A model generated the notes under the pieces. It searched no databases. It worked only from the letters and a program-made list of their open reading frames with translations, and was not told where the DNA came from. From Candidatus Schekmanbacteria bacterium (GTDB lineage: Bacteria; Schekmanbacteria; GWA2-38-11; J061), in contig JACRJM010000007.1 of the NCBI GenBank assembly GCA_016219965.1, forward strand, positions 186,001-250,000: DNA of 64,000 bases, written 5' to 3'. Below are positions 13,760 through 59,338 of the stretch, piece by piece. Each line of letters opens with the position of its first letter. Position 1 is the stretch's first letter. The translations under genes were made by a program, and so were the position numbers.

Positions 13760-14691
13760 ATCTCCTTCTCGTCAGTAACAAGACCCAGGAATACATCCTC
13801 CAGACTTAAAGAAACCTTCTTTATTTCTTTAAGTCCATATCCTTTATTAACACAGGCTATAACCAGATTTTCCCTTATGTCAGATTCTGGGGCAACCTCA
13901 ATCAGGAAACGCCCTTCTTCGCTGGTGAGGCGGGAAACCAAAACCACACCTTCTATTTTTTCAAGCTCTTTTTCCGCATCCTGAGGGGGAGAGGAAAGAA
14001 GCAATTCTATTTTTTCAGATTTTCTCAAATGTTTTGAAATATCTTCATAGCTATCTGTGGCAATAATCTTACCCTTGTTTATAATTATAACCTTGTTGCA
14101 CGTCATTGTAACCTCGGGAAGAATATGCGTACTCAGTATGACTGTTCTTTCTCCTGCAAGTTCTTTTATAAGCATACGGATATCTGTTATCTGTTTTGGA
14201 TCAAGCCCGACTGTAGGCTCATCAAGGATAAGAACTTCAGGGTCATGTATGAGAGCCTGGGCAAGGCCAACCCTCTGCCTGAATCCCTTTGAGAGGTTCC
14301 CTATAAGCCTTCTTCTTACATCTTTAAGCCCGCATTTCGAAACTACATATTCAATACCATCTTCCAATTTTTTATTCACAAGTCCGCGCAGGCTTCCCGT
14401 ATACCTGAGGTAAGACTCAACAGTCATATCTCTATAAAGAGGAGGTGTTTCAGGAAGATATCCGATCCTTTTTTTCACCTCCATGGGATCCTTCAAAATA
14501 TCAAATCCGGCTATAGTGGCAGTTCCCGAAGTAGGCGGAATAAAGCAGGTGAGCATCCTCATGGTAGTGGTTTTCCCTGCACCATTAGGGCCAAGGAACC
14601 CCACAATATCTCCCTTCCCTATGGAAAATGAAATATTGTCAACTCCCATGATAGTTCGATAAAACTTAGTAAGTCCTCTTACCTCTATCAT
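13756..14691 (-). CDS. ABC transporter ATP-binding protein, GldA-like
   Basis: A 311-residue ATPase with Walker A GPNGAGKTT (about residues 34-42), signature LSKGFRQRVGLAQAL, Walker B VLILDEP and the D-loop GLDP. The C-terminal extension of about 90 residues is typical of GldA-type ATPases that work with ABC-2 permeases. First gene of the run ATPase-permease-GldG-DUF4340-DUF1844-plsC. The signature reads LSKGF rather than LSGGQ, as is common in this subfamily. Confidence 0.92.
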   Translation of the reverse strand: MIEVRGLTKFYRTIMGVDNISFSIGKGDIVGFLGPNGAGKTTTMRMLTCFIPPTSGTATIAGFDILKDPMEVKKRIGYLPETPPLYRDMTVESYLRYTGSLRGLVNKKLEDGIEYVVSKCGLKDVRRRLIGNLSKGFRQRVGLAQALIHDPEVLILDEPTVGLDPKQITDIRMLIKELAGERTVILSTHILPEVTMTCNKVIIINKGKIIATDSYEDISKHLRKSEKIELLLSSPPQDAEKELEKIEGVVLVSRLTSEEGRFLIEVAPESDIRENLVIACVNKGYGLKEIKKVSLSLEDVFLGLVTDEKEI

Positions 14692-14808
14692 CCCGCAACC
14701 TTAAAAAAATGTTCTAAGAATATTTTATATCAACAACTGATAGTTTTAATTGAACACCAGATATATCTAAATCAAAAATAAAAACAGCGAAATTTAAACA
14801 ACTCAAAA

Positions 14809-15918
14809 TCACTTGAACTCTTTCAGTCTGTCAATAAATCCTTTTTTCTGTTTTGTCTCTTTGCTATTTTCAAACTGAGAAAGTTCCCTTATAAGTTCCT
14901 CTTCCCTTTTTGAAATGCTGGTGGGAATTTTAACGAATAATTCAATAATCTGATCCCCTTTACCCATTCCTCTTATTACAGGCATCCCTTTACCACGGAG
15001 AGTTATCCTGTCGCCATTCTGCGTCCCCTTTGGCACTTTAACAGAAGTTGTACCTTCGAGAGTAGGGGCATTTATTTCCCCCCCCAGCACTGCCTGCGGA
15101 AATGAAATCCCTACCCTGCAATAAAGATCATTTTCATAACGTTTAAACAATTCATCTTCCTGAACAAAAATAACCACATAAAGATCTCCGGCCGGTCCTC
15201 CGCGCTCTCCTGCTTCTCCTTCCCCTCGCAGTCTAAGCTTAGATCCGGTATCGACACCAGCAGGTATTTTTACGGAAAGTTTCTTTTTGTCCTCAACCTT
15301 TCCTCTGCCCGAGCATTTTTGGCAGGGATTTTGTATAATCACTCCCTGTCCCCGGCAGTGCGGACATGTAGTGCTTATGCTGAAAAAACCCTGCGAACGG
15401 CTTACCTGCCCTCTTCCGTTGCATGTAGGGCATCTTGCCGGTTTAGTACCGGGTTTGGCTCCTGTCCCATCGCAAGTATGGCATGTCTCAGCTCTTTCTA
15501 TTTCTATTTCTTTTTCTAACCCAAAAGCTGCTTCATGCAGCGAAATCTGAATATCATATCTAAGATCAGATCCTCTCTGAGGGCCTGTACGACTTCTCGA
15601 ACCTGATGCTGAAAAACCAAAGAAATCGCCGAATATATCGCCTAAGTTTGAAAAAATATCACCAGCATCTGAAAACCCCTGAAAGCCGGCACCTTTTAAG
15701 CCTTCATGTCCGTACATATCATAGGTACGCCTTTTTTCCGGGTCATTCAGAACTTCATATGCTTCTGCTGCTTCCTTGAATTTTTCTTCTGCCTCTTTGT
15801 TCTCCGGATTTCTGTCCGGATGATATTGCATTGCAAGTTTCCGGTACGTTTTCTTTATCTCCTCCTGGGAGGCCTCTTTTTTTACGCCAAGTATCTGGTA
15901 ATAATCATTTTTAACCAA
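14809..15918 (-). CDS. dnaJ: Chaperone DnaJ, second copy
   Basis: A 369-residue class I DnaJ co-chaperone that stimulates DnaK ATPase. J-domain at 1-70 with the HPD motif in QYHPDRNP, Gly/Phe linker with [10 protein letters not shown], zinc domain with four CxxCxGxG-type repeats ([32 protein letters not shown]), then the C-terminal substrate domains. It is last in the chaperone cluster, 23 bases after the second grpE. Its sequence is clearly diverged from the dnaJ at 17194-18312, so the pair is not a recent duplication. Confidence 0.95.
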
Positions 15919-23983: not shown

Positions 23984-24706
23984 TTAGAACAGGGCTTCTA
24001 AGGAAAGCTCCGCCATCTCTTCCCCCACAGCCTTTACCACCATAATCCCGCCCGGATCCTTCTCCCTGAAGTTAATCCTGATCGCTTCCCTGCGTTCAAT
24101 GAGACGCTTCATGTAATTTTTATCTTTCGGCTCTGCTTTCTTCCAGAGATCAACGAATATCTTGAAATAATCCATTGTCAGTTCCATTATCTTGTTCTGC
24201 GAATCCTTTGTGCTTGGCGCAATATTCCCTGTAATGCAGTAAGGAGAGCTCAATGCCCTGAACCAGTTAGTGCTCATGCCGCTAAGTCCGGGAAAGTATG
24301 TTCTTGTTCCCTTGTCATAGGCATCTTCGAGAGGGTCAAGATTCTTCTCCATGTAAGGGATATCAACAATGCAGTCTGCCGTTGGATAAAGATCAATAAT
24401 GAAAAAGCTCCCCTTCTTGTTTTCCGCCCAATAAGAAGAAAAAACAGGAAGATCATGTTCATCATCAGGCCAGATCATCATGGCATAGGACATAAGCATT
24501 TCTTTAAAGCTCTGAAAACCGACTACAATCTTTTGAAGTTTGGGAGCCTTGTAAAGATACTTGTAGCTTTTAAAGCCCTCTCCATTTAAATCCCAGAGGG
24601 GCTTTATGTCCTTACCATTGTAAGACTCCATTCTCGTTCCGCCGAAAACCTTGACGGCATCTTCCATCACCTCCATGTATGGAGGAAAACTATATTCTTC
24701 AGACAT
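23984..24706 (-). CDS. Ferredoxin-dependent bilin reductase-like protein A
   Basis: A 240-residue soluble protein. The block HDLPVFSSYW followed by FFIIDLYPTADC corresponds to the PLLGxD...LDFxP region of ferredoxin-dependent bilin reductases (PcyA/PebA/RCCR superfamily). The Asp in IIDLYP aligns with the catalytic Asp of PcyA. Then come LEDAYDKG and NWFRALSSPYCI, and the C-terminus has the family pattern ...FREKDPGGIMVVKAVGEEMAELSLEALF, like the FGEEWAE...LF end of PcyA. A second paralogue is at 55501-56208. In this segment there are no photosynthesis genes. Substrate unknown; the call rests on motif reading. Confidence 0.72.
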   Translation of the reverse strand: MSEEYSFPPYMEVMEDAVKVFGGTRMESYNGKDIKPLWDLNGEGFKSYKYLYKAPKLQKIVVGFQSFKEMLMSYAMMIWPDDEHDLPVFSSYWAENKKGSFFIIDLYPTADCIVDIPYMEKNLDPLEDAYDKGTRTYFPGLSGMSTNWFRALSSPYCITGNIAPSTKDSQNKIMELTMDYFKIFVDLWKKAEPKDKNYMKRLIERREAIRINFREKDPGGIMVVKAVGEEMAELSLEALF

Positions 24707-24800
24707 TTTTATCTCCCAGATTTAAAAGTTTTATAATCACAGAACAAAACATTTATTTGTTCGATACATTAAGTAATTCAATTTTCAAAGTTTCATTCTT

Positions 24801-24826
24801 TTGTCAATCTAAAATTAGTCTGACAA
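24801..24826. promoter_or_regulatory. 26-bp palindrome in divergent promoter region
   Basis: TTGTCA-N2-CTAA-N2-TTAG-N2-TGACAA, symmetric at 20 of 26 positions. It lies midway between the divergent starts of the bilin-reductase-like gene (24706) and the metallophosphoesterase gene (24874). Shape and position fit an operator for a dimeric regulator. Inferred. Confidence 0.5.
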
Positions 24827-24873
24827 TCTTCAGGCTGTTGCTTTTTGAAGTTAAAGTTTGTATATAAACTGCC

Positions 24874-26100
24874 ATGCGAAACACGAGTTTACTTTATCTT
24901 GTACTTTCTCTTTTATTGTTCTCGACTATCATTGTAACAACACAGTGGTATCTCGGCAAAAGGACGCTTAGATGGGTTGGGAGGCTTGACCTTCCAGATA
25001 AGAAGAAAAGACTTTTAAAGGGACTAACAATCTGCGCCCTGGTTTTTCTTAATATGCCTTTGGTTTACACCTTTATCGCAGGCGTTCCGAAGAACCCGGT
25101 TCCCCCGCTAATCATGTATCCCATAGTTTATCCATATGCTATATGGGGAAGCTCTTATGTGTTTATCTTAATAATCCTGAAGCTAAAAGATCTCATCTCT
25201 TTTGCTTTGAGAAAAACAAAAACTCTTGCAGGCAGAAGTTCCTCACAACCAGCGGAAAATGAAATTTATACTGACCCTTCACGGAGAAATTTTTTAAGCA
25301 TTGCAGGGAAAAGTATAGTGGCTGCACCTGTTGCTCTTTCATGTTACGGAGTATTTATAGGCAAACAAAATTATATAACACGGGAAGTGAATATCAATAT
25401 CCCCGGTTTACCGATGGAACTTCAAAGACTAAAAATAGTCCAGATAAGCGATATCCATTGCGGCATATTCATGGGCGAAGCTGAAATCAGGAAATGGATA
25501 AACATCCTGGAATCTCTTAAGCCTGACATACTTCTTGTAACTGGAGATTTTGTAGGCACTTCCAATGACTCGGTCGAATATTGCGCCGCAGGACTAAAAT
25601 ATCTCCGCTCTATGATGCCTATATACGCATGCCTCGGAAATCACGATTATTACGGCAATGAAAAAGATTTAATCGGCGCTATCAGCAATAGTGGTGTAAA
25701 CATACTCCGAAACAGCTCTGATACAATTGCATTTAAGGGTGCAGACTTAAATATTTGCGGTGTAGAGGACATGATGAATTCAGATCCTGATCTTGCAATC
25801 GCAGTAAAAAAGATTGATGACACTAAAGCCACAATCCTTATGTCCCATAATCCAAACTATTTCAAAGAAGCAAAAAAACATGGAATAGACCTCACCATAT
25901 CAGGGCATACGCATGGAGGACAGGTAGATATAAATCTTGCAGGCCTTTACTTAAGCCCGGCTCAGCTCATAACCAAATATGTAAAAGGGCATTTCATAGA
26001 AAACGGATGCAACCTTTATGTTAATGCAGGAATCGGCACTATAGGATTTCCTCTCCGTCTCAATGTCCCGCCTGAAATAACAGTTTTCAAGCTCATTTAA
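24874..26100 (+). CDS. Membrane-anchored metallophosphoesterase
   Basis: A 408-residue protein. Four hydrophobic helices in the N-terminal 120 residues, then SRRNFLSIAG followed by a hydrophobic stretch (an internal Tat-like anchor), then a calcineurin-like phosphoesterase domain (about 185-408). Metal-binding motifs are complete: SDIHCG, GDFVG, GNHDYY, MSHNP and GHTHGGQ. The closest families are YaeI/YkuE-type phosphodiesterases that act on lipids or envelope substrates. Divergent from the bilin-reductase-like gene; ends at a terminator shared with the convergent PCP_red gene. Confidence 0.88.
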   Translation: MRNTSLLYLVLSLLLFSTIIVTTQWYLGKRTLRWVGRLDLPDKKKRLLKGLTICALVFLNMPLVYTFIAGVPKNPVPPLIMYPIVYPYAIWGSSYVFILIILKLKDLISFALRKTKTLAGRSSSQPAENEIYTDPSRRNFLSIAGKSIVAAPVALSCYGVFIGKQNYITREVNINIPGLPMELQRLKIVQISDIHCGIFMGEAEIRKWINILESLKPDILLVTGDFVGTSNDSVEYCAAGLKYLRSMMPIYACLGNHDYYGNEKDLIGAISNSGVNILRNSSDTIAFKGADLNICGVEDMMNSDPDLAIAVKKIDDTKATILMSHNPNYFKEAKKHGIDLTISGHTHGGQVDINLAGLYLSPAQLITKYVKGHFIENGCNLYVNAGIGTIGFPLRLNVPPEITVFKLI

Positions 26101-26130
26101 TTAATTTTACCTTTGAATCATCAAATAAAA

Positions 26131-26172
26131 AAGCTGCGGCAATAACGTCCAAAGTACATACTGCCGCAGCTT
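26131..26172. terminator. Bidirectional terminator
   Basis: Perfect 11-bp stem AAGCTGCGGCA/TGCCGCAGCTT with a 20-base loop between two convergent genes. It is flanked by an A-run on the left (AAATAAAA) and a weaker T-run on the right, so it is strongest on the minus strand. Confidence 0.75.
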
Positions 26173-26201
26173 AAAGTAAATTTAACCTTTTATTTTAAAA
26201 A

Positions 26202-27131
26202 CTAATTTGCTGATTTGAAAATCTTCTCGAAAATTGGCGCAATGCCTGTTCTCGTGAGGATTGAAGTAATGCTCTCTTCTCCGATTGCCTTTTCTTTTAT
26301 AAACTGTATTGATTTTTCAAGCGCGCTGAAAAGCTCCGCCTCAGTTGCCACACGATATATCTCGTATCCTACCTTGTGGTGGCGTCCAAATGCGCCTCCC
26401 ACAGTCAATGCATATCCTCTTTTTTCTACACCGAGAGTCCCTGTGGGGCATACTTTAACGCAGGCTTCGCATATCTTGCACTTGCCGTAATCTATCTTAG
26501 GTTTCCCGTTTATCAGAAGAACAGCATTATCAGGGCATCTGTTCACGCAGGCATAACACTGGGAACATTCAACATCTGTGACTATCGGAATAGCTGTACC
26601 ATGAATCCCAAATTCCTTGTGTGCCGTACCTGTGCATGAGTTGGGGCAGGCAGAAATGGAAAATGATATTCTGTTATGAGGGAGTATCCTCTCGTCATCA
26701 TGAAGCATGTCAGCCACCATTTCTGAAACCTTCAATTCCTGGAGCCTTTTCTTCAATTTAGCGGCTAACTGCCTTACCTCGGCAATCTGTGATGTACAGC
26801 GGAAGTACTGAGCATGGCAAAGATCGATATCGAACATATCTATTTCCTTTGCCAGGATGTCGCGTGCTTCCTTTTCCATCTTCTCCATTAAATCTGCTTC
26901 GCCTTCTTTAATCCTCTTATCCCATTCTTTGAGCCTTGATTCTTCAGAAACAACGCCAAAATAAACTCTTTTTGTTGCCTCAATCTCCTTCATTGTTACT
27001 TTGCTGCTTTTGTTAAAGCGTGCTTTCTTTTCAGCAAACACCTTTGCCATTGCCTTCGCCATGTCTGACAAGGGCATTTTTATAAATGCCTGTTCCGCCT
27101 CTGGTTCCCACTGCATATTGCAATCCTCCAA
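26202..27131 (-). CDS. PCP_red / sirohaem-reductase-like / ferredoxin fusion A
   Basis: A 309-residue iron-sulfur protein. Residues 6-55 (QWEPEAEQAFIKMP...) fit the PCP_red domain, the C-terminal domain of the protochlorophyllide reductase BchB. A sirohaem-reductase-like half follows: C-x6-C in CHAQYFRC, then C-x3-C in ACPNSCTG followed by HKEFGIHG. Next is a 2x[4Fe-4S] ferredoxin with CSQCYACVNRCP and CKICEACVKVCP, and finally GYALTVGGAFGRHHKVG, as in AsrC/DsrA-type proteins. The first ferredoxin-like domain of true sulfite reductases is missing. A paralogue is at 56230-57141. Probably an electron-transfer or reductase subunit. Confidence 0.8.
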   Translation of the reverse strand: MEDCNMQWEPEAEQAFIKMPLSDMAKAMAKVFAEKKARFNKSSKVTMKEIEATKRVYFGVVSEESRLKEWDKRIKEGEADLMEKMEKEARDILAKEIDMFDIDLCHAQYFRCTSQIAEVRQLAAKLKKRLQELKVSEMVADMLHDDERILPHNRISFSISACPNSCTGTAHKEFGIHGTAIPIVTDVECSQCYACVNRCPDNAVLLINGKPKIDYGKCKICEACVKVCPTGTLGVEKRGYALTVGGAFGRHHKVGYEIYRVATEAELFSALEKSIQFIKEKAIGEESITSILTRTGIAPIFEKIFKSAN

Positions 27132-27232: not shown

Positions 27233-27889
27233 TTAAAGAGCATGGTCAAGGAGCATAATCATGGGCCTCTTAGGAAGTGTTCCCTTTGTTATGGTTATCT
27301 CGCTTGTTGCCATGAGAGATATGTTTCTTTTCCGATCTACAAACTCATCAATGCGGGCAAGAGGGAAGCCGCACTTATCGGTCTTGTAATGCATAGGGAT
27401 TGTAATCCGGGGCAAAATTGATTGGATCACCTTGTCAGCTTCCTGGGAGTCGATCGTAAAAATACCGCCAATCGGTATTAGAAGAACATCAACAGGCTTT
27501 ATCTTTCCTGCCAGTTCTTCATCTATTTCATGTCCAAGGTCTCCAAGATGGCACACCGTAACATCATCAACCGTCATCTTGAATATGATAATTTTCCCGC
27601 GCTCAGCTCCGCCCTGTTTGTCATGGTGTGCTTCAATTCCCTCAATATTTATCCCATTAACAGAAAACTTGTCTGCACTGTCAATAAGCTTGAATTCTCC
27701 AGGGACTCCTTCCGAATGGCCGTGGTCTCTATGGTTATGAGAGCAAAGCACAGCATCAGCGGTATCGTTTATCGGATGATATCCAATCGCTCCGTCGTAA
27801 CCTCCGGCTTCGTAAGGATCAGTTATTATCTTTGTTCCGTTGTCACCGGTTATAAGAAATGATGAATGTCCATACCATTTTATTTTCAA
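27233..27889 (-). CDS. Metallo-beta-lactamase fold hydrolase (UPF0173-like)
   Basis: A 218-residue cytoplasmic hydrolase of the YtkL/UPF0173 group. Starts MKIKWYGHSSFLI as in the family. The zinc motif SHNHRDHGH (HxHxDH) is complete, with HLGDLGH and PMHYKT supplying the later His/Asp ligands. It lies 101 bases upstream of the PCP_red fusion on the same strand and could be co-transcribed with it. It diverges from the O-methyltransferase gene. The substrate is unknown for this group. Confidence 0.88.
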   Translation of the reverse strand: MKIKWYGHSSFLITGDNGTKIITDPYEAGGYDGAIGYHPINDTADAVLCSHNHRDHGHSEGVPGEFKLIDSADKFSVNGINIEGIEAHHDKQGGAERGKIIIFKMTVDDVTVCHLGDLGHEIDEELAGKIKPVDVLLIPIGGIFTIDSQEADKVIQSILPRITIPMHYKTDKCGFPLARIDEFVDRKRNISLMATSEITITKGTLPKRPMIMLLDHAL

Positions 27890-27983
27890 TCCATTCCTCC
27901 TTCAGATAAATCTGGCTGATAAATCCATTCTGTTCTATATATCTCTACTTGTAATCCTACATAGATTTTTTGATAATAGCAAT

Positions 27984-29033
27984 ATGACGAAGAAAAAAAG
28001 AGTTATTACTAATAATTTCATAAATTCTAAGGTCAGCAAGGACCCTATATGGGAAATGGCAATGGCTTTTCAGGTGAGCAAAGCCCTTTTCCTGGCAAAT
28101 AACCTTGATATATTCACGATTCTTTCCCGGAAACCGGACACCGCTGAAGCAACCGCAAAAAAGCTGAAACTTCAATCCAGACCTGTAGAGAGGCTTTTAA
28201 ACGCCATGTCAGCTTTCGGGCTGCTGAAGAAAAAAGACGGGAAATATTATAATACCGATATGTCTGAGACTTTTCTGGTCAAGGGAAGGCCTGAGTACTT
28301 CGGGAATTATCTCAATGCCATCAACGAGGTTTACCGCGCGTGGTCGGATTATGAAAAAGTCGTAGAAAACAACAGTTCAATCCCTCTTTTTCGCAAAGAT
28401 TATGCGGAAGGACAGGAGGTCATTCACAGGATGATGCTCGCACAGGAGGGATTCAGCTTCAGGCAGGCCGCCTATCTTCCGGAAGTATACGATTTTTCCG
28501 GGCACAGACTTCTTCTCGATGTCGGCGGAGGCACAGGAATCTTTTCTGTAATGGCAGTTAATGCTAACCCGAATCTCATGTCCATTATATTTGATGTGCC
28601 TCCCGTATGTGCCGTTGCCCGCGAACGGATAAAACTTTACAAGGCAGAGAAAAAGATCAAAATCATGGAAGGTAATTTCATCACAGACAATCTGCCGCAG
28701 GGTGCGGATGCGGCGTTACTCTCAACAATCCTTGATGCCTATGATGATAATGATTGCAGACATCTCATAAAAAAGGTATTTGATAGTTTAAAGCCAGGGG
28801 GCACCATTATCGCAAATGAGATGATGCTCAATAAAGAAGGGACTGGCCCGCTTTTTCCTGCGATTTTTTCCCTTGAACTCATGATTGAAAGAAACCGCGG
28901 CAACTCGAGAAAAATCGATGAAATAAAAGGGTGGATGAAAGACGCAGGATTTACGAAAATAAAATGCAGACCGCTTTGGCTAAAAGGAGAGACTTATCTT
29001 AACTGCTGGATTGTAACCGGAAAGAAACGATGA
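27984..29033 (+). CDS. Class I O-methyltransferase, HIOMT/BchU-like
   Basis: About 349 residues. The N-terminal winged-helix dimerisation domain (about 20-100, with ATAKKLKLQSRPVERLLNAM) precedes the SAM-binding domain with LLDVGGGTGIFS and a late LKPGGTIIANEM loop. This is the architecture of hydroxyindole O-methyltransferase, CrtF and BchU. The ATG at 27984 is preferred over an in-frame start at 27840, which would run into the divergent MBL gene. It overlaps the PHP gene by 4 bases. BchU-like enzymes methylate bacteriochlorophyllides, but this family is broad and the substrate is not inferable. Confidence 0.85.
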   Translation: MTKKKRVITNNFINSKVSKDPIWEMAMAFQVSKALFLANNLDIFTILSRKPDTAEATAKKLKLQSRPVERLLNAMSAFGLLKKKDGKYYNTDMSETFLVKGRPEYFGNYLNAINEVYRAWSDYEKVVENNSSIPLFRKDYAEGQEVIHRMMLAQEGFSFRQAAYLPEVYDFSGHRLLLDVGGGTGIFSVMAVNANPNLMSIIFDVPPVCAVARERIKLYKAEKKIKIMEGNFITDNLPQGADAALLSTILDAYDDNDCRHLIKKVFDSLKPGGTIIANEMMLNKEGTGPLFPAIFSLELMIERNRGNSRKIDEIKGWMKDAGFTKIKCRPLWLKGETYLNCWIVTGKKR

Positions 29034-54546: not shown

Positions 54547-54566
54547 AAAAAGTATGGGCAGTTTTT

Positions 54567-54688
54567 GCGAATGAGGGATTTGGATGTCAGGCGAGGAAGC
54601 GGAGGATTAGCATACCGGAGCGTACTTTTTGTACGTGAGGATTGCTAACCGAACGCTGACAAAGCATCACGCCAAATCCCTCATTCGC
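54567..54688. repeat. Inverted-repeat element R5, 122 bp
   Basis: Perfect 17-bp terminal repeats: GCGAATGAGGGATTTGG (54567-54583) and its complement (54672-54688). Core CGGAGCGTACTTTTTGTACG near 54619-54638 with an inner hairpin GTAC/GTAC. Same length and layout as R1 and R4. With the REP-like unit it fills most of the 305-base gap at 54394-54698, just downstream of the second bilin-reductase-like cassette. Confidence 0.85.
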
Positions 54689-54698
54689 TACAAACTAC

Positions 54699-55433
54699 TT
54701 AAATTCTTGCGTAGCAAGTCTCCCCCGGTGTCATCTTAATATCCACACCCATCTCTTTCCCAAATCCTGAGTAGAGAGGTATGCAGAGGTTATTGCAGAC
54801 ATCTTTCCACTCGATGCTGAACATCTTAAGAGGTTTGCAGACTTCAAGAATCCCTACATATGGGCAGGGGAAACTTCTCTCACCCGGCTTTACAGTTATT
54901 TCTTCAAAAAGCTGGACAGAACACATTGTTCCGTCAAACGTTGTCGTAAGCGCCAACTCAGGCCCAAAAGATGCTATCTGGACTTTTGCCCTGTGGAGTA
55001 TGGGCATCATTGTGTTTATGTAGTGAGTAATAAACTCTTTCTGTATTCCTTTCTGAACGGCAAAATCTATGGAATTAAGCCATGATTTTGTTAGCGCATC
55101 ATTGAACTTGTGCTGATATGGTCTTTGGTTCGCATATGTCTTGAAAAGAACTTTTAAGGCTTTCCCTATCTGCTCGGAATCAAATTGCGGGAGAGGGAGT
55201 CTCTCTCCTCCTTTGCCTCCACCCATTCCGGTTCCTGCTCCGGCGCCCATTCCTGTTCCCATACCTTCAGGCTTCTGTCCGCCACCCTGAGGCATTCCGC
55301 CTGCCTCTCCGACAGCCATAGCCAGAATAGGGTTTGTAAGAATGGCCGCACTTCCCAGTACACCAGAATACTTCAGAAAATCCCTGCGGGTACTATTTTT
55401 TTCTGAAGCCGTTTCATTTAACTCTTTTTTCAT
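54699..55433 (-). CDS. Tat-exported protein of the second bilin-reductase-like cassette
   Basis: A 244-residue protein with a twin-arginine signal (NSTRRDFLKYSG, then hydrophobic segment to AMA), a Gly/Met-rich linker (about 43-78, with GMGTGMGAG repeats) and a C-terminal domain of about 165 residues. That domain contains MCSVQLFEE, SFPCPYVG, and ends VCNNLCIPLYSGFG ... GETCYARI. The Cys pattern resembles the L-2-amino-thiazoline-4-carboxylic acid hydrolase (ATC_hydrolase)/V4R-like fold, weakly. Third gene of the cassette, 67 bases after the bilin-reductase-like gene. Exported after folding, so a cofactor is likely. Confidence 0.6.
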   Translation of the reverse strand: MKKELNETASEKNSTRRDFLKYSGVLGSAAILTNPILAMAVGEAGGMPQGGGQKPEGMGTGMGAGAGTGMGGGKGGERLPLPQFDSEQIGKALKVLFKTYANQRPYQHKFNDALTKSWLNSIDFAVQKGIQKEFITHYINTMMPILHRAKVQIASFGPELALTTTFDGTMCSVQLFEEITVKPGERSFPCPYVGILEVCKPLKMFSIEWKDVCNNLCIPLYSGFGKEMGVDIKMTPGETCYARI

Positions 55434-55500
55434 AACGTCTCCTTTTTATTAGTAACTGTTGTACGAGTAACCGTTAAAAAAGTTTTAAAGCTGTTCAATG

Positions 55501-56208
55501 TCAGAATAAAAGAGAAAATACAAACTCTGCTGTCTCATCGCCAAAGGCTTTCCTCAACGGACCTTCTCCGGGATCATTCTCGCGAAGCGTTGCAAACATG
55601 GCTTTTTTCCTGCCAGTCAAAAGCTCCATGTATTTTGGATCCTGTTTTTGAGCATCAGCCCAAAACTTTGTATAGAGATTTAGATAATCCGCTGTGATCT
55701 CAAGAGACTTGTCTTCTATGCCTTCCTGTTCATATTTGAATTTCCCGCTGGTGTAAAATGGAGACAACATTGCCCTGAACCAGAGATAGTTCTCCCGGCA
55801 CATTCCATGAATATCCTTATACTTTTCCCACAAAGACTCCATTGGTTCCGCATACTTTGTGAGATAACCTAAATCGCGCCCGCAATCAGCAGTCGGAATA
55901 AGGTCAACCCTCAAGCTTACATGACTCGCAGCCTGGACAAGTTCGGAAGAGAATACGGGAAGGTCATACTCATCTTTGGGCACAACAGTTGTCGCCCATA
56001 CGATAAGTTTCCCGCCGAGAATCGTAGCTTTCATCATTATGATCTTTTCAATCTTCTCAGCCTCGTAACAACGGATCTCCTCTTTCATCATATCTGATTC
56101 TATGTTTTCAAGGAATGTGATGTCTTTGCCTTTGAAGGTAGTCATCCGTTTCGGGTTTATGAGCTTTAGCCCCTCAAGCAATGTTTCAAAATAAGGAATA
56201 TTTTTCAT
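55501..56208 (-). CDS. Ferredoxin-dependent bilin reductase-like protein B
   Basis: A 235-residue soluble protein, paralogue of 23984-24706. Shared blocks: YDLPVFSSELV, then LRVDLIPTADCGRDLGY with the catalytic-type Asp, LWEKYKDIHGMCRENYLWFRAM (shortened here) and LSPFYTSGKF. The C-terminus LTGRKKAMFATL... ENDPGEGPLRKAFGDETAEF, ending LLF, matches the bilin reductase tail (KNDKT...FGEEWAE...LF). It starts 21 bases after the PCP_red fusion gene, so both are made from one transcript, unlike locus A, where another gene lies between them. Substrate unknown. Confidence 0.75.
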   Translation of the reverse strand: MKNIPYFETLLEGLKLINPKRMTTFKGKDITFLENIESDMMKEEIRCYEAEKIEKIIMMKATILGGKLIVWATTVVPKDEYDLPVFSSELVQAASHVSLRVDLIPTADCGRDLGYLTKYAEPMESLWEKYKDIHGMCRENYLWFRAMLSPFYTSGKFKYEQEGIEDKSLEITADYLNLYTKFWADAQKQDPKYMELLTGRKKAMFATLRENDPGEGPLRKAFGDETAEFVFSLLF

Positions 56209-56229
56209 CTGAGTCTCCGGTAAAAAGAT

Positions 56230-57141
56230 CTAACATTTGCATTTGTGCGGCGGGCTGGCAAAAACACGTCTTGTTATATAGTCAAGCCCCACCTTGTCAA
56301 CGACCTGAGCAAGAAAATGCTCATCGCCCATTTTTTCCTTTATAAGGTTTACTACTGCATCAAGAGTTTTGAATATATCCTCTTTCTGCCCTATCCTGAA
56401 TACTTCTTTGCCTACAGTCTGCATCCTGCCGAATGTGCCTCCAACAAGTATCCTGTATCCTTTTTCTTTTGATGATATCGTACCCGTTGGACATGCTTTG
56501 ATGCACATACCGCAAAGAACGCAAAGCCTCTCATTGATAACAGGCTTTGCCTGCTCTTCGAAGCTGACTGCTCCGTCCCAGCAGACATGGTAACATTTCT
56601 TGCAGTTGATACATTCCACATTTTCATTCACCTGCGGTCTTTCTACTCCATGAATCCCGAAGTCCTTGGCTTCAGGGGCAGAGCACCCGCTGGCACAGCT
56701 TGAGATTGATACCGTGAACTTATTATGCGAAATTAATGGACCATGCGCCTTATCCGCCATTATCTCGGTAATCCCATATTCTTCCAGCTTCTCAATGATA
56801 GGGACAACCAGCTCTCTTACATCTATTATCTGGGCAGGACATCCGAAATATTTGGAATGGCAGGCTTCAACCTGATAGAGACAGTCTTTCCCTTCCTTTT
56901 CCGTAGGAGGGATTTCAGGCATGTCCCCGCTTGCCATGCAGGCGCAAAGCTTATCAACAAACTTCTTTCCGAAGAACTCGTCATAGTCTTTTATTGTCTG
57001 CTTCACATCTTCAACTATTACCTTTGCATGCTTTTCCCGACGGGCGATCTTTTCAGCATAGATTCTCCTCATAGGTATCTGAGGAGGACCTGCGACAATG
57101 TTATTATCAAAATATTCTACCGCTTCTTTTTCCCACTCCAT
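56230..57141 (-). CDS. PCP_red / sirohaem-reductase-like / ferredoxin fusion B
   Basis: A 303-residue iron-sulfur protein, paralogue of 26202-27131 with the same domain order. PCP_red-like N-terminus (MEWEKEAVEYFDNN...RRIYAEKIARREKH), C-x6-C in CHSKYFGC, C-x3-C in SCASGCSAPEAKDFGIHG, ferredoxin with CINCKKCYHVCW and CVLCGMCIKACP, then GYRILVGGTFGRMQTVG. The first ferredoxin cluster reads CYHVCW, so Trp replaces the usual Pro after the last Cys. The protein ends with KCKC. Likely electron donor or partner of the adjacent bilin-reductase-like protein. Confidence 0.82.
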   Translation of the reverse strand: MEWEKEAVEYFDNNIVAGPPQIPMRRIYAEKIARREKHAKVIVEDVKQTIKDYDEFFGKKFVDKLCACMASGDMPEIPPTEKEGKDCLYQVEACHSKYFGCPAQIIDVRELVVPIIEKLEEYGITEIMADKAHGPLISHNKFTVSISSCASGCSAPEAKDFGIHGVERPQVNENVECINCKKCYHVCWDGAVSFEEQAKPVINERLCVLCGMCIKACPTGTISSKEKGYRILVGGTFGRMQTVGKEVFRIGQKEDIFKTLDAVVNLIKEKMGDEHFLAQVVDKVGLDYITRRVFASPPHKCKC

Positions 57142-57266: not shown

Positions 57267-57734
57267 CTAATTGCTTTTCCTCTGGGCCAAAATAATTCCG
57301 GCACAGGCAATAAACGAGATCAGTGGGAATAGAAATTCAGGAACGTAAACACCGGGAATAAGCCTTCCTTCCGTTGAAAACCTCGCAAAGTTTTCAGCAA
57401 GTATATAGACCAGCGTGAAAAGGAAATTGGACATGAATGCCCAAAACTTTTTTAGTGCTGAAGTCTTTAATGGTTTAACAAGCACATAATAATAAAGGAC
57501 TATGAATGCGACTGTATAAGTATTGATCAGGATACTGTAAAAAGGCGCCTTAAGAAAATAATGATTTATGATATAAAAACTTGCGCCAACAAGGGTTACA
57601 AGAGAATACCTCCATCCATCTAATTCAACCTTAAACCACTTTTTATACATATAAATTAGGAAGAGATAAGCAATCCAGGTACCGAAAGCCAGCTCATAAA
57701 ACTGCACCTTCCCTTCCCAGCTTTTGTCTATCAT
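57267..57734 (-). CDS. Five-helix membrane protein, unknown
   Basis: A 155-residue polytopic protein. Hydrophobic segments at about 15-30, 44-61, 68-87, 98-114 and 131-149, with a short Arg/Lys tail (QRKSN). No motif points to a family. It lies 125 bases downstream (minus strand upstream side) of the cassette and could have its own promoter. Confidence 0.6.
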   Translation of the reverse strand: MIDKSWEGKVQFYELAFGTWIAYLFLIYMYKKWFKVELDGWRYSLVTLVGASFYIINHYFLKAPFYSILINTYTVAFIVLYYYVLVKPLKTSALKKFWAFMSNFLFTLVYILAENFARFSTEGRLIPGVYVPEFLFPLISFIACAGIILAQRKSN

Positions 57735-58049: not shown

Positions 58050-58574
58050 ATGTTTATGTTGAACACTTATCCTATATATCTGACTAAATTTCTGAGAAAA
58101 ACGATGAACAATGAAAGCGGAAAAGTCAGTTATACTCTAAAAGAAAAGCAACCTTCCTCAAAAAAACTATTGCCTTTTCACGGAAAAAATTACATTCGCA
58201 TTTCGCTTTACGCATTAATTGTACTTTTCCTTGGCAACCTTAATGCTATCGTTGATGCAGTATTGCATCCGGAGATTGAATATTTCGATCATGAACACCT
58301 GATAGTAGGCGGTATTGTAATGGTAGTAACGGCAGTTCTCTTTGGCGTTGCCTCTGTTTATCTTCTTCGCCTTGAGAAAACCATAGAAACACTTAACACG
58401 CTTAAAGGATTGCTTCCAATCTGCAGCAACTGCAAAAAAATCCGCGATCCTGAAAATGCGTGGCATGCACTTGAAAACTACCTCAGCGAAAGAAGCGATA
58501 TTTTATTCACTCACAGCATCTGTCCCGAGTGCTACAAAAAACTCTACGGAGATTTACAGAAAAAGTTATTTTAA
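58050..58574 (+). CDS. Two-helix membrane protein with CxxC sensor-tail domain
   Basis: Up to 174 residues (start 58050 or 58104). Two transmembrane helices (about 52-72 and 87-109), then a C-terminal domain of about 50 residues: LLPICSNCKKIRDPENAWHA and THSICPECYKKLYGDLQ. Two CxxC pairs suggest a zinc or iron-sulfur site. This tail is common at the end of PAS sensor proteins and histidine kinases, but here it stands alone behind two membrane helices. Convergent with the SDR gene, overlap of 4 bases. Confidence 0.75.
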   Translation: MFMLNTYPIYLTKFLRKTMNNESGKVSYTLKEKQPSSKKLLPFHGKNYIRISLYALIVLFLGNLNAIVDAVLHPEIEYFDHEHLIVGGIVMVVTAVLFGVASVYLLRLEKTIETLNTLKGLLPICSNCKKIRDPENAWHALENYLSERSDILFTHSICPECYKKLYGDLQKKLF

Positions 58575-59338
58575 AGCCGTGCGCCGCCAGTCACCTCGAT
58601 AACCTGTCCAGTAATAAACGAAGATTCTTCTGATGCCAGAAACAATGCACAGTTAGCAATATCTATCGGCTGACCCACTCTGCCGAGCGGATAACGGAAT
58701 TCGCAGTCTGCCTTTAGAGCTTCCCATTCATCCTTTGATACATTGGATTTTATTGTCTCTGTCTCAACAAGAGAAGGGGCAATGGCATTCACATTGATCC
58801 CGTAAGGTCCGAGATACTGGGCAACAGACCTTGTAAAACCTTCCATTGCAGCCTTAGTGGCTGAATATGTGAGCTGTATGGGGTTCCCCCTCCTTGCGAT
58901 AGATGACATATTTATGATTTTTCCATAGCGTTTTTCCATCATATACTTGCCTGCCTCGCGGGTACAAACAAACATTGATTTGATGTTAAGGTCAATGCTC
59001 TTGTTCCAGTTCTCCGAAGAGATCTCATCAAGCCCTTTCATTATTTCAAAATCATAACCTACATTGTTTACAAGAATATCAATTCTCCCGAGCTTTTCAA
59101 TGCTTGCGCTTATGAGCTTTATAAGCTCCTCTTCCTTAAAAGCATCTGCATAGACAAAGAGTGCGCGTCCCCCTTTATCTTTAATGTATTTTACGCGCTT
59201 TTCCCCTGCTTCAGTGTTGATGTCGGAAAGTAAAACTATTGCCCCTTCCTCTGCAAACCTTTCTGCAATGGCACCTCCGATAGCACCGGCTGCGCCGGTT
59301 ACAACTGCCGTCTTATCTTTAAGTCTCATAATCTCCAT
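58571..59338 (-). CDS. SDR family oxidoreductase
   Basis: About 255 residues. TGAAGAIGGAIAERF (cofactor motif), NNVGYD, SSIARRG catalytic Ser, Y-x3-K in LTYSATKAAMEG and FITGQVIEVTGGARL at the end. This fits 3-oxoacyl-ACP reductase (FabG)-like and related dehydrogenases; the substrate is not defined. The ATG at 59338 (with GGGGG upstream) or 59329 (GGAG upstream) is preferred over the upstream in-frame ATG at 59416. Confidence 0.9.
   Translation of the reverse strand: MEIMRLKDKTAVVTGAAGAIGGAIAERFAEEGAIVLLSDINTEAGEKRVKYIKDKGGRALFVYADAFKEEELIKLISASIEKLGRIDILVNNVGYDFEIMKGLDEISSENWNKSIDLNIKSMFVCTREAGKYMMEKRYGKIINMSSIARRGNPIQLTYSATKAAMEGFTRSVAQYLGPYGINVNAIAPSLVETETIKSNVSKDEWEALKADCEFRYPLGRVGQPIDIANCALFLASEESSFITGQVIEVTGGARL

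Follow-up and report, generated by a model that had tools for sequence, protein, structure and literature searches.

Within the window, a 64,000-nucleotide stretch of DNA from a Candidatus Schekmanbacteria bacterium, positions 54699-57141 hold a cassette of three open reading frames on the minus strand, separated by intergenic gaps of 21 and 67 bases exactly as the first-pass annotation had placed them. A purine-rich, ribosome-binding-like stretch lies 5' of each frame (GGAGG, GGAG and AAGGAG). Gene 1 (56230..57141) encodes a 303-aa fusion protein, in which a sub-threshold PCP_red-like N-terminus is joined to a NIR_SIR domain of which only the second half is present and into which two [4Fe-4S] ferredoxin motifs are inserted; gene 2 (55501..56208) encodes a 235-aa reductase resembling FDBRs and RCCR; and gene 3 (54699..55433) encodes a 244-aa Tat-exported orphan with invariant H137, C190, C213, C217, and C240. 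Two more minus-strand genes lie upstream: a membrane protein (57267..57734), probably part of the cassette, and a short-chain dehydrogenase (SDR; 58571..59329), probably associated with it, whose open reading frame extends to 59416 but has its better start at the ATG at 59329. On the 3' side of the Tat gene, positions 54562-54693 form a 22-nt inverted repeat (91%) around an 88-nt spacer, and the segment enclosed by the arms has no second copy in the window.

Components of the cassette

The reductase is a member of the Fe_bilin_red family (PF05996), which bears out its earlier description as a bilin-reductase relative; the match (E=7.7e-18) scores 65.4 bits where 31 would suffice and spans positions 33-227 of the 228-position profile. 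A profile built from 26 paralogues recovers bilin reductase and RCCR structures from the PDB (6qwq, 9.7e-35; HY2-type 6kmd, 1.7e-26; PebA 2x9o, 5.2e-24; RCCR 3aga, 1.4e-9). The RCCR profile PF06405 does not match the cassette protein at E<=10, and it matches the paralogue L085 at 6.6e-4. At the catalytic columns of PcyA the cassette reductase carries E76M, H88A, and D105E, and it keeps the C-terminal Asp (D220 of PcyA; DPA motif of PebA/PebB) within RENDPGEG. D102 is the sole invariant column across the 26 paralogues, and other paralogues in the same genome have N88/D105/D220, as in PebA/PebB. The replacement of two PcyA catalytic residues by non-protic ones, together with the change of D105 to Glu, suggests that this reductase may have changed its substrate or lost activity. 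In a tree of 45 rows, the cassette reductase and its orthologue in the sister genome group at 100/100 and form one clade with four others at 99/95, while PcyA, PebA, PebB, and relatives from Myxococcota and the cyanobacterial phylum fall apart from this clade on one side of a weak branch (72/55). Neither a tblastn search of phages nor a genome-contig scan with the single reductase sequence gave a match.

The fusion protein matches NIR_SIR (E=2e-12, 47.3 bits, cut-off 27) and Fer4_10 (1.1e-8) and contains two 4Fe-4S motifs, so that an Fe-S protein is indeed the direct neighbor of the reductase. Its closest curated equivalog profile is AsrC (TIGR02912), at 5.8e-17 and far under the cut-off of that profile, and its nearest solved structure by sequence is the F420-dependent sulfite reductase Fsr (7np8, 7.9e-23). 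C94, C101, C149, and C153, as well as the eight ferredoxin Cys, are invariant in 8 Schekmanbacterial relatives. The sirohaem-type motifs claimed in the first-pass annotation hold as far as the four SiR-type Cys within NIR_SIR are concerned, with the pattern C-X6-C ... C-X3-C and thus X6 instead of X5, but the siroheme domain is incomplete: the NIR_SIR_ferr half, which carries a conserved VHLT(S/T)RQ..EIP segment in full-length relatives, is absent both in the Pfam scan and in an alignment with full-length relatives from Selenomonas and Methanocalculus. The PCP_red domain (PF08369) assigned earlier could not be recovered in the cassette protein at E<=10. Fusion paralogues show PCP_red matches at the same N-terminal place (2.5e-5, 9.8e-4, 0.026, 0.05, and 0.16), all under the Pfam cut-off, the best being that of L076 with 24.6 bits against 32.5; hence, "PCP_red-like" is a fair wording. 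No BchB/ChlB match of this N-terminus was found among solved structures. The same C-X6-C motif occurs outside the order in a relative (G027) that is itself a half-domain protein of 210 aa, and a genome-contig scan with fusion alignment A1, using strict degenerate patterns, found a full-length relative of the fusion only in Schekmanbacteria GWA2_38_11. There are also fusion paralogues without an FDBR neighbor, indicating that the fusion has other uses. Structure prediction from a 5-row alignment gave a mean pLDDT of 38.8, too low for use.

Export of the third protein, as proposed earlier, agrees with TIGR01409 (21 bits, cut-off 16.7) and an STRRDFLK motif, although Pfam TAT_signal remains below its cut-off (19 bits against 22.7). 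No known domain other than the Tat signal was found with Pfam and TIGR/NCBIfam profiles. Five homologues were detected among 386 genomes, confined to this genome (G000) and the sister genome (G001), and the five His and Cys residues listed above are among the invariant columns of these five members; this suggests, from sequence conservation, that they are candidate metal ligands and that the protein may bind a metal or cluster. In both genomes the family also occurs directly 3' of a divergent reductase-like gene (L078, 7761-8492, in G000; L219, 2194-2928, in G001), which Pfam does not recognize and which hhalign relates to the reductase profile with 94.6% probability. These genes belong to a conserved arrangement of a metallo-beta-lactamase gene (MBL), a DUF362/Tat gene, the unrecognized FDBR-fold gene, and a Tat 4-Cys gene (L078 4445-9800, G000:C3; L219 79-3618, G001:C280). 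In G000 a DUF169 protein precedes this arrangement, and its C-terminus has a PCP_red-like stretch that, at 4.3e-6, stays under the cut-off. A distant V4R/BchJ-like identity of the Tat protein, suspected from its Cys pattern, was rejected after a PDB profile search returned no such match. Its single-sequence structure prediction (mean pLDDT 43.4) was too low for use.

Recurrence of the pair and expansion of the family

The sister genome encodes an orthologous fusion-reductase pair (G001:C23) in the same order and on the same strand, each protein being 70% identical to its counterpart, indicating that the pair survived substantial divergence. The gaps in that operon are 51 and 79 bases, so that 51 bases separate fusion and reductase there, compared to 21 here. 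The recurrent pairing expected in the first-pass annotation is thus found in the sister genome, but neither of the two remaining genomes of the order yielded it; recurrence is narrow, with the pair in 2 of 4 genomes and in one family. The third gene of the sister operon belongs to the CPOX family (2.2e-11) and takes the place of the Tat gene, so that the Tat protein is not the fixed last component it was thought to be; being coproporphyrinogen-oxidase-like, this gene upholds the proposed link to tetrapyrrole-type enzymes. The upstream genes recur at another locus of the sister genome (L084, G001:C237) next to an FDBR-like gene of the same clade: the membrane protein is 56% identical to the protein directly after that gene (gap 6), and the SDR, which is FabG/BadH-like by NCBIfam without passing an equivalog cut-off, is 78% identical to an SDR upstream of it. 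The functional group is therefore probably made up of the SDR, membrane protein, fusion, reductase, and accessory protein.

The title of the first-pass annotation implied another such locus in the window. Both paralogues do exist there on the minus strand, an FDBR-like one of the cassette clade (23984..24706; PF05996 2.7e-12, clade support 99/95) and a fusion (26202..27131; NIR_SIR 3.9e-7, PCP_red 0.05), but a phosphoesterase gene on the opposite strand separates them. The conserved neighbor of this fusion is a metallo-beta-lactamase gene and not an FDBR: the same MBL-fusion pair is found in G002 (L080), and in the sister genome the fusion is not near an FDBR gene. Accordingly, 23984-27131 was rejected as a second instance of the pair.

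How widespread are such reductases? PF05996 has 8 matches in this genome and 12, 3, and 3 in the other three genomes of the order, and the paralogue profile counts 9, 13, 3, and 4 in the four, giving 8-9 FDBR-like genes here and 12-13 in the sister genome; no PF05996 match was found in 37 further genomes. By way of comparison, among 195 genomes from the phylum around a Myxococcales record, 3 have PF05996 in one copy each; among 117 sampled from the phylum around a cyanobacterial record, 50 have it, with at most 4 copies per genome. The 8-9 paralogues of the present genome probably differ in substrate. Classical heme oxygenase, sought with PF01126 only at E<=0.1, is found in none of the 4 Schekmanbacterial genomes, three of which are at least 97% complete. 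The CPOX (HemF) family has 7, 4, 4, and 2 matches in the four, some of them fragments; the seven in this genome lie at L159, L160, L161, L162, L163, L164, and L014, the last (14518-15441) having an N-terminal signal-like segment and lying near a cytochrome c peroxidase-like gene.

Redox or radical enzymes repeatedly neighbor genes of this superfamily, a descriptive pattern to test rather than a statistic. They include a Fer4 protein at L087 (gap 22), an SdhA-type flavoprotein at L014 (gap 3), an aldehyde ferredoxin oxidoreductase beside L085 (gap 21) and also near the CPOX-like genes L159 and L162, and B12-binding radical SAM proteins in three genomes. Each of the latter is encoded immediately upstream of a divergent gene of the FDBR fold (L158 8479-10521, G000:C9; L092 8524-10607, G002:C18; L095 526-2631, G003:C39); L158 and L092 are 51% identical, and all three match the BchE profile TIGR02026 weakly, below its cut-off (1.6e-13 to 4.4e-19). 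At L082 (4111-14821, G001:C7), a single contig of 25 kb carries four FDBR-like genes, including a tandem pair. Three loci of the present genome (window 27840-29033, L011 10537-11649, and L013 12648-13682) have homologous methyltransferases near FDBR-like genes; by eye, these enzymes resemble acetylserotonin O-methyltransferase/BchU.

Proposed function and competing explanations

What might the fusion and the reductase do together? Known FDBRs receive electrons from ferredoxin and add them two at a time. Our leading explanation, advanced tentatively, is a two-component reductase with an Fe-S donor fusion and an FDBR/RCCR-fold catalyst. The fusion (56230-57141) would be a dedicated low-potential electron donor, the reductase (55501-56208) would be the catalytic subunit, and electrons would pass two at a time to a conjugated substrate bound in the FDBR pocket. 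This substrate would most likely be a porphyrinoid or a linear or opened tetrapyrrole, in either case from a source other than classical heme oxygenase. The third gene would be an accessory that depends on the genome, a Tat-exported 4-Cys protein here and a CPOX-like protein in the sister genome. In favor of the donor role we count the two ferredoxin-type clusters with invariant Cys and the ferredoxin need of known FDBRs. We infer electron transfer from fusion to reductase and co-transcription of the genes, as well as a tetrapyrrole substrate, the last because of the fold superfamily, the PCP_red-like N-terminus, and the CPOX-like gene of the sister operon; the lack of a PF01126 match suggests that this substrate is not heme-oxygenase biliverdin. 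The observation of the first-pass annotation is thus confirmed, and its interpretation is partly supported.

The same lack of PF01126 matches also fits an alternative that we regard as unlikely, though it survives best of the three considered: an FDBR-fold protein recruited to a non-tetrapyrrole substrate, e.g., an aromatic, alicyclic, or quinone-like one, with cassette and SDR working in general anaerobic redox metabolism. The altered active site would be compatible with it, as would the 78% conserved FabG/BadH-type SDR beside a clade member in the sister genome, the aldehyde ferredoxin oxidoreductase, SdhA, and SDR neighbors elsewhere, and a number of paralogues above the need of bilin chromophore synthesis. 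Against it speak the CPOX-like third gene of the sister operon and the action on tetrapyrroles of all characterized members of the fold superfamily, FDBR, RCCR, and CPOX (PMC10151467).

A reversal of roles, in which the NIR_SIR fusion is the siroheme- or [4Fe-4S]-based catalyst and the FDBR-like protein serves it as a chaperone or substrate-binding subunit that might deliver siroheme or a precursor, seems improbable. Such a catalyst would make sense of the four invariant SiR-type Cys with two ferredoxin clusters, of the loss of PcyA catalytic residues in the partner, and of fusions that occur without an FDBR; however, the NIR_SIR_ferr half with its VHLT(S/T)RQ..EIP segment is missing, the motif is C-X6-C and not C-X5-C, and the 210-aa C-X6-C relative outside the order (G027) is likewise a half-domain protein. 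A genuine pre-PcyA system, the lineage named in the first-pass annotation, would convert biliverdin to phytobilins destined for bilin-binding proteins. It shares the Pfam family and finds an echo in the N88/D105/D220 paralogues of this genome, yet we reject it as very improbable on account of the missing PF01126 match in four genomes, A88/E105 in the cassette protein, our own tree, which keeps the cassette clade (99/95) apart from known FDBRs even though support for the branch of the latter is weak (72/55), the neighbors at the locus, among which neither a BBAG globin nor a V4R protein was seen by Pfam or inspection, and the outgroup position, on the RCCR side, of the Schekmanbacterial members in the published tree (PMC10151467).

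Significance and relation to known systems

Rockwell, Martin and Lagarias 2023 (PMC10151467) argue that O2 is ultimately needed by FDBRs, RCCR, and CPOX alike and that these enzymes originated together with oxygenic photosynthesis; they also noted Schekmanbacterial sequences between FDBRs and RCCRs. A lineage outside the known FDBRs, without a PF01126 match, with up to 8-13 copies and with some members beside dedicated putative donors, is a natural setting in which to test the claim of O2 dependence and to seek what the fold originally did; the fusion-reductase pair, being small and co-expressible, lends itself to testing of this kind. Beyond the two-component reductase, a broader and rather speculative reading is that Schekmanbacteria hold a large FDBR/RCCR/CPOX-fold radiation independent of O2 and heme oxygenase, whose members would each have their own redox or radical partner (the NIR_SIR/ferredoxin fusion, B12 radical SAM, aldehyde ferredoxin oxidoreductase, or flavoproteins) and would serve anaerobic tetrapyrrole opening, reduction, or salvage. 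If true, this would overturn the proposed O2 dependence of the fold family.

The Schekmanbacterial FDBR/RCCR-like sequences of that study come from the same phylum and family and very probably represent the same group as the cassette reductase. Their existence is therefore already published; the main text gives no gene neighborhoods, copy numbers, or partners for them, and context and expansion are apparently absent from it. New here are the 8-9 and 12-13 copies, the lack of a PF01126 match in four genomes, and the orthologous pair in the sister genome. FDBRs proper (PcyA, PebA, PebB, HY2, PcyX, and pre-PcyA) share with the cassette reductase the Pfam family and the C-terminal DPG/Asp region, whereas the cassette protein differs at E76M, H88A, and D105E, very probably belongs to the group that the published tree sets apart from known FDBRs, has its own Fe-S gene next door, and resides in a genome without a PF01126 match. 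RCCR has the same fold superfamily, and the paralogue profile matches RCCR structures, but the RCCR profile PF06405 does not recognize the cassette protein. The fusion resembles Fsr, AsrC, and DsrAB, in which a ferredoxin is inserted into NIR_SIR, in having the second half and two inserted [4Fe-4S] sites, and it departs from them in lacking the first half, with a PCP_red-like stretch in its place, and in its C-X6-C motif. Finally, subunit B of light-independent protochlorophyllide reductase carries the PCP_red domain to which several fusion paralogues show a weak likeness at the same N-terminal position, but PCP_red is undetected in the cassette protein itself, and the fusion has no nitrogenase-like domain.
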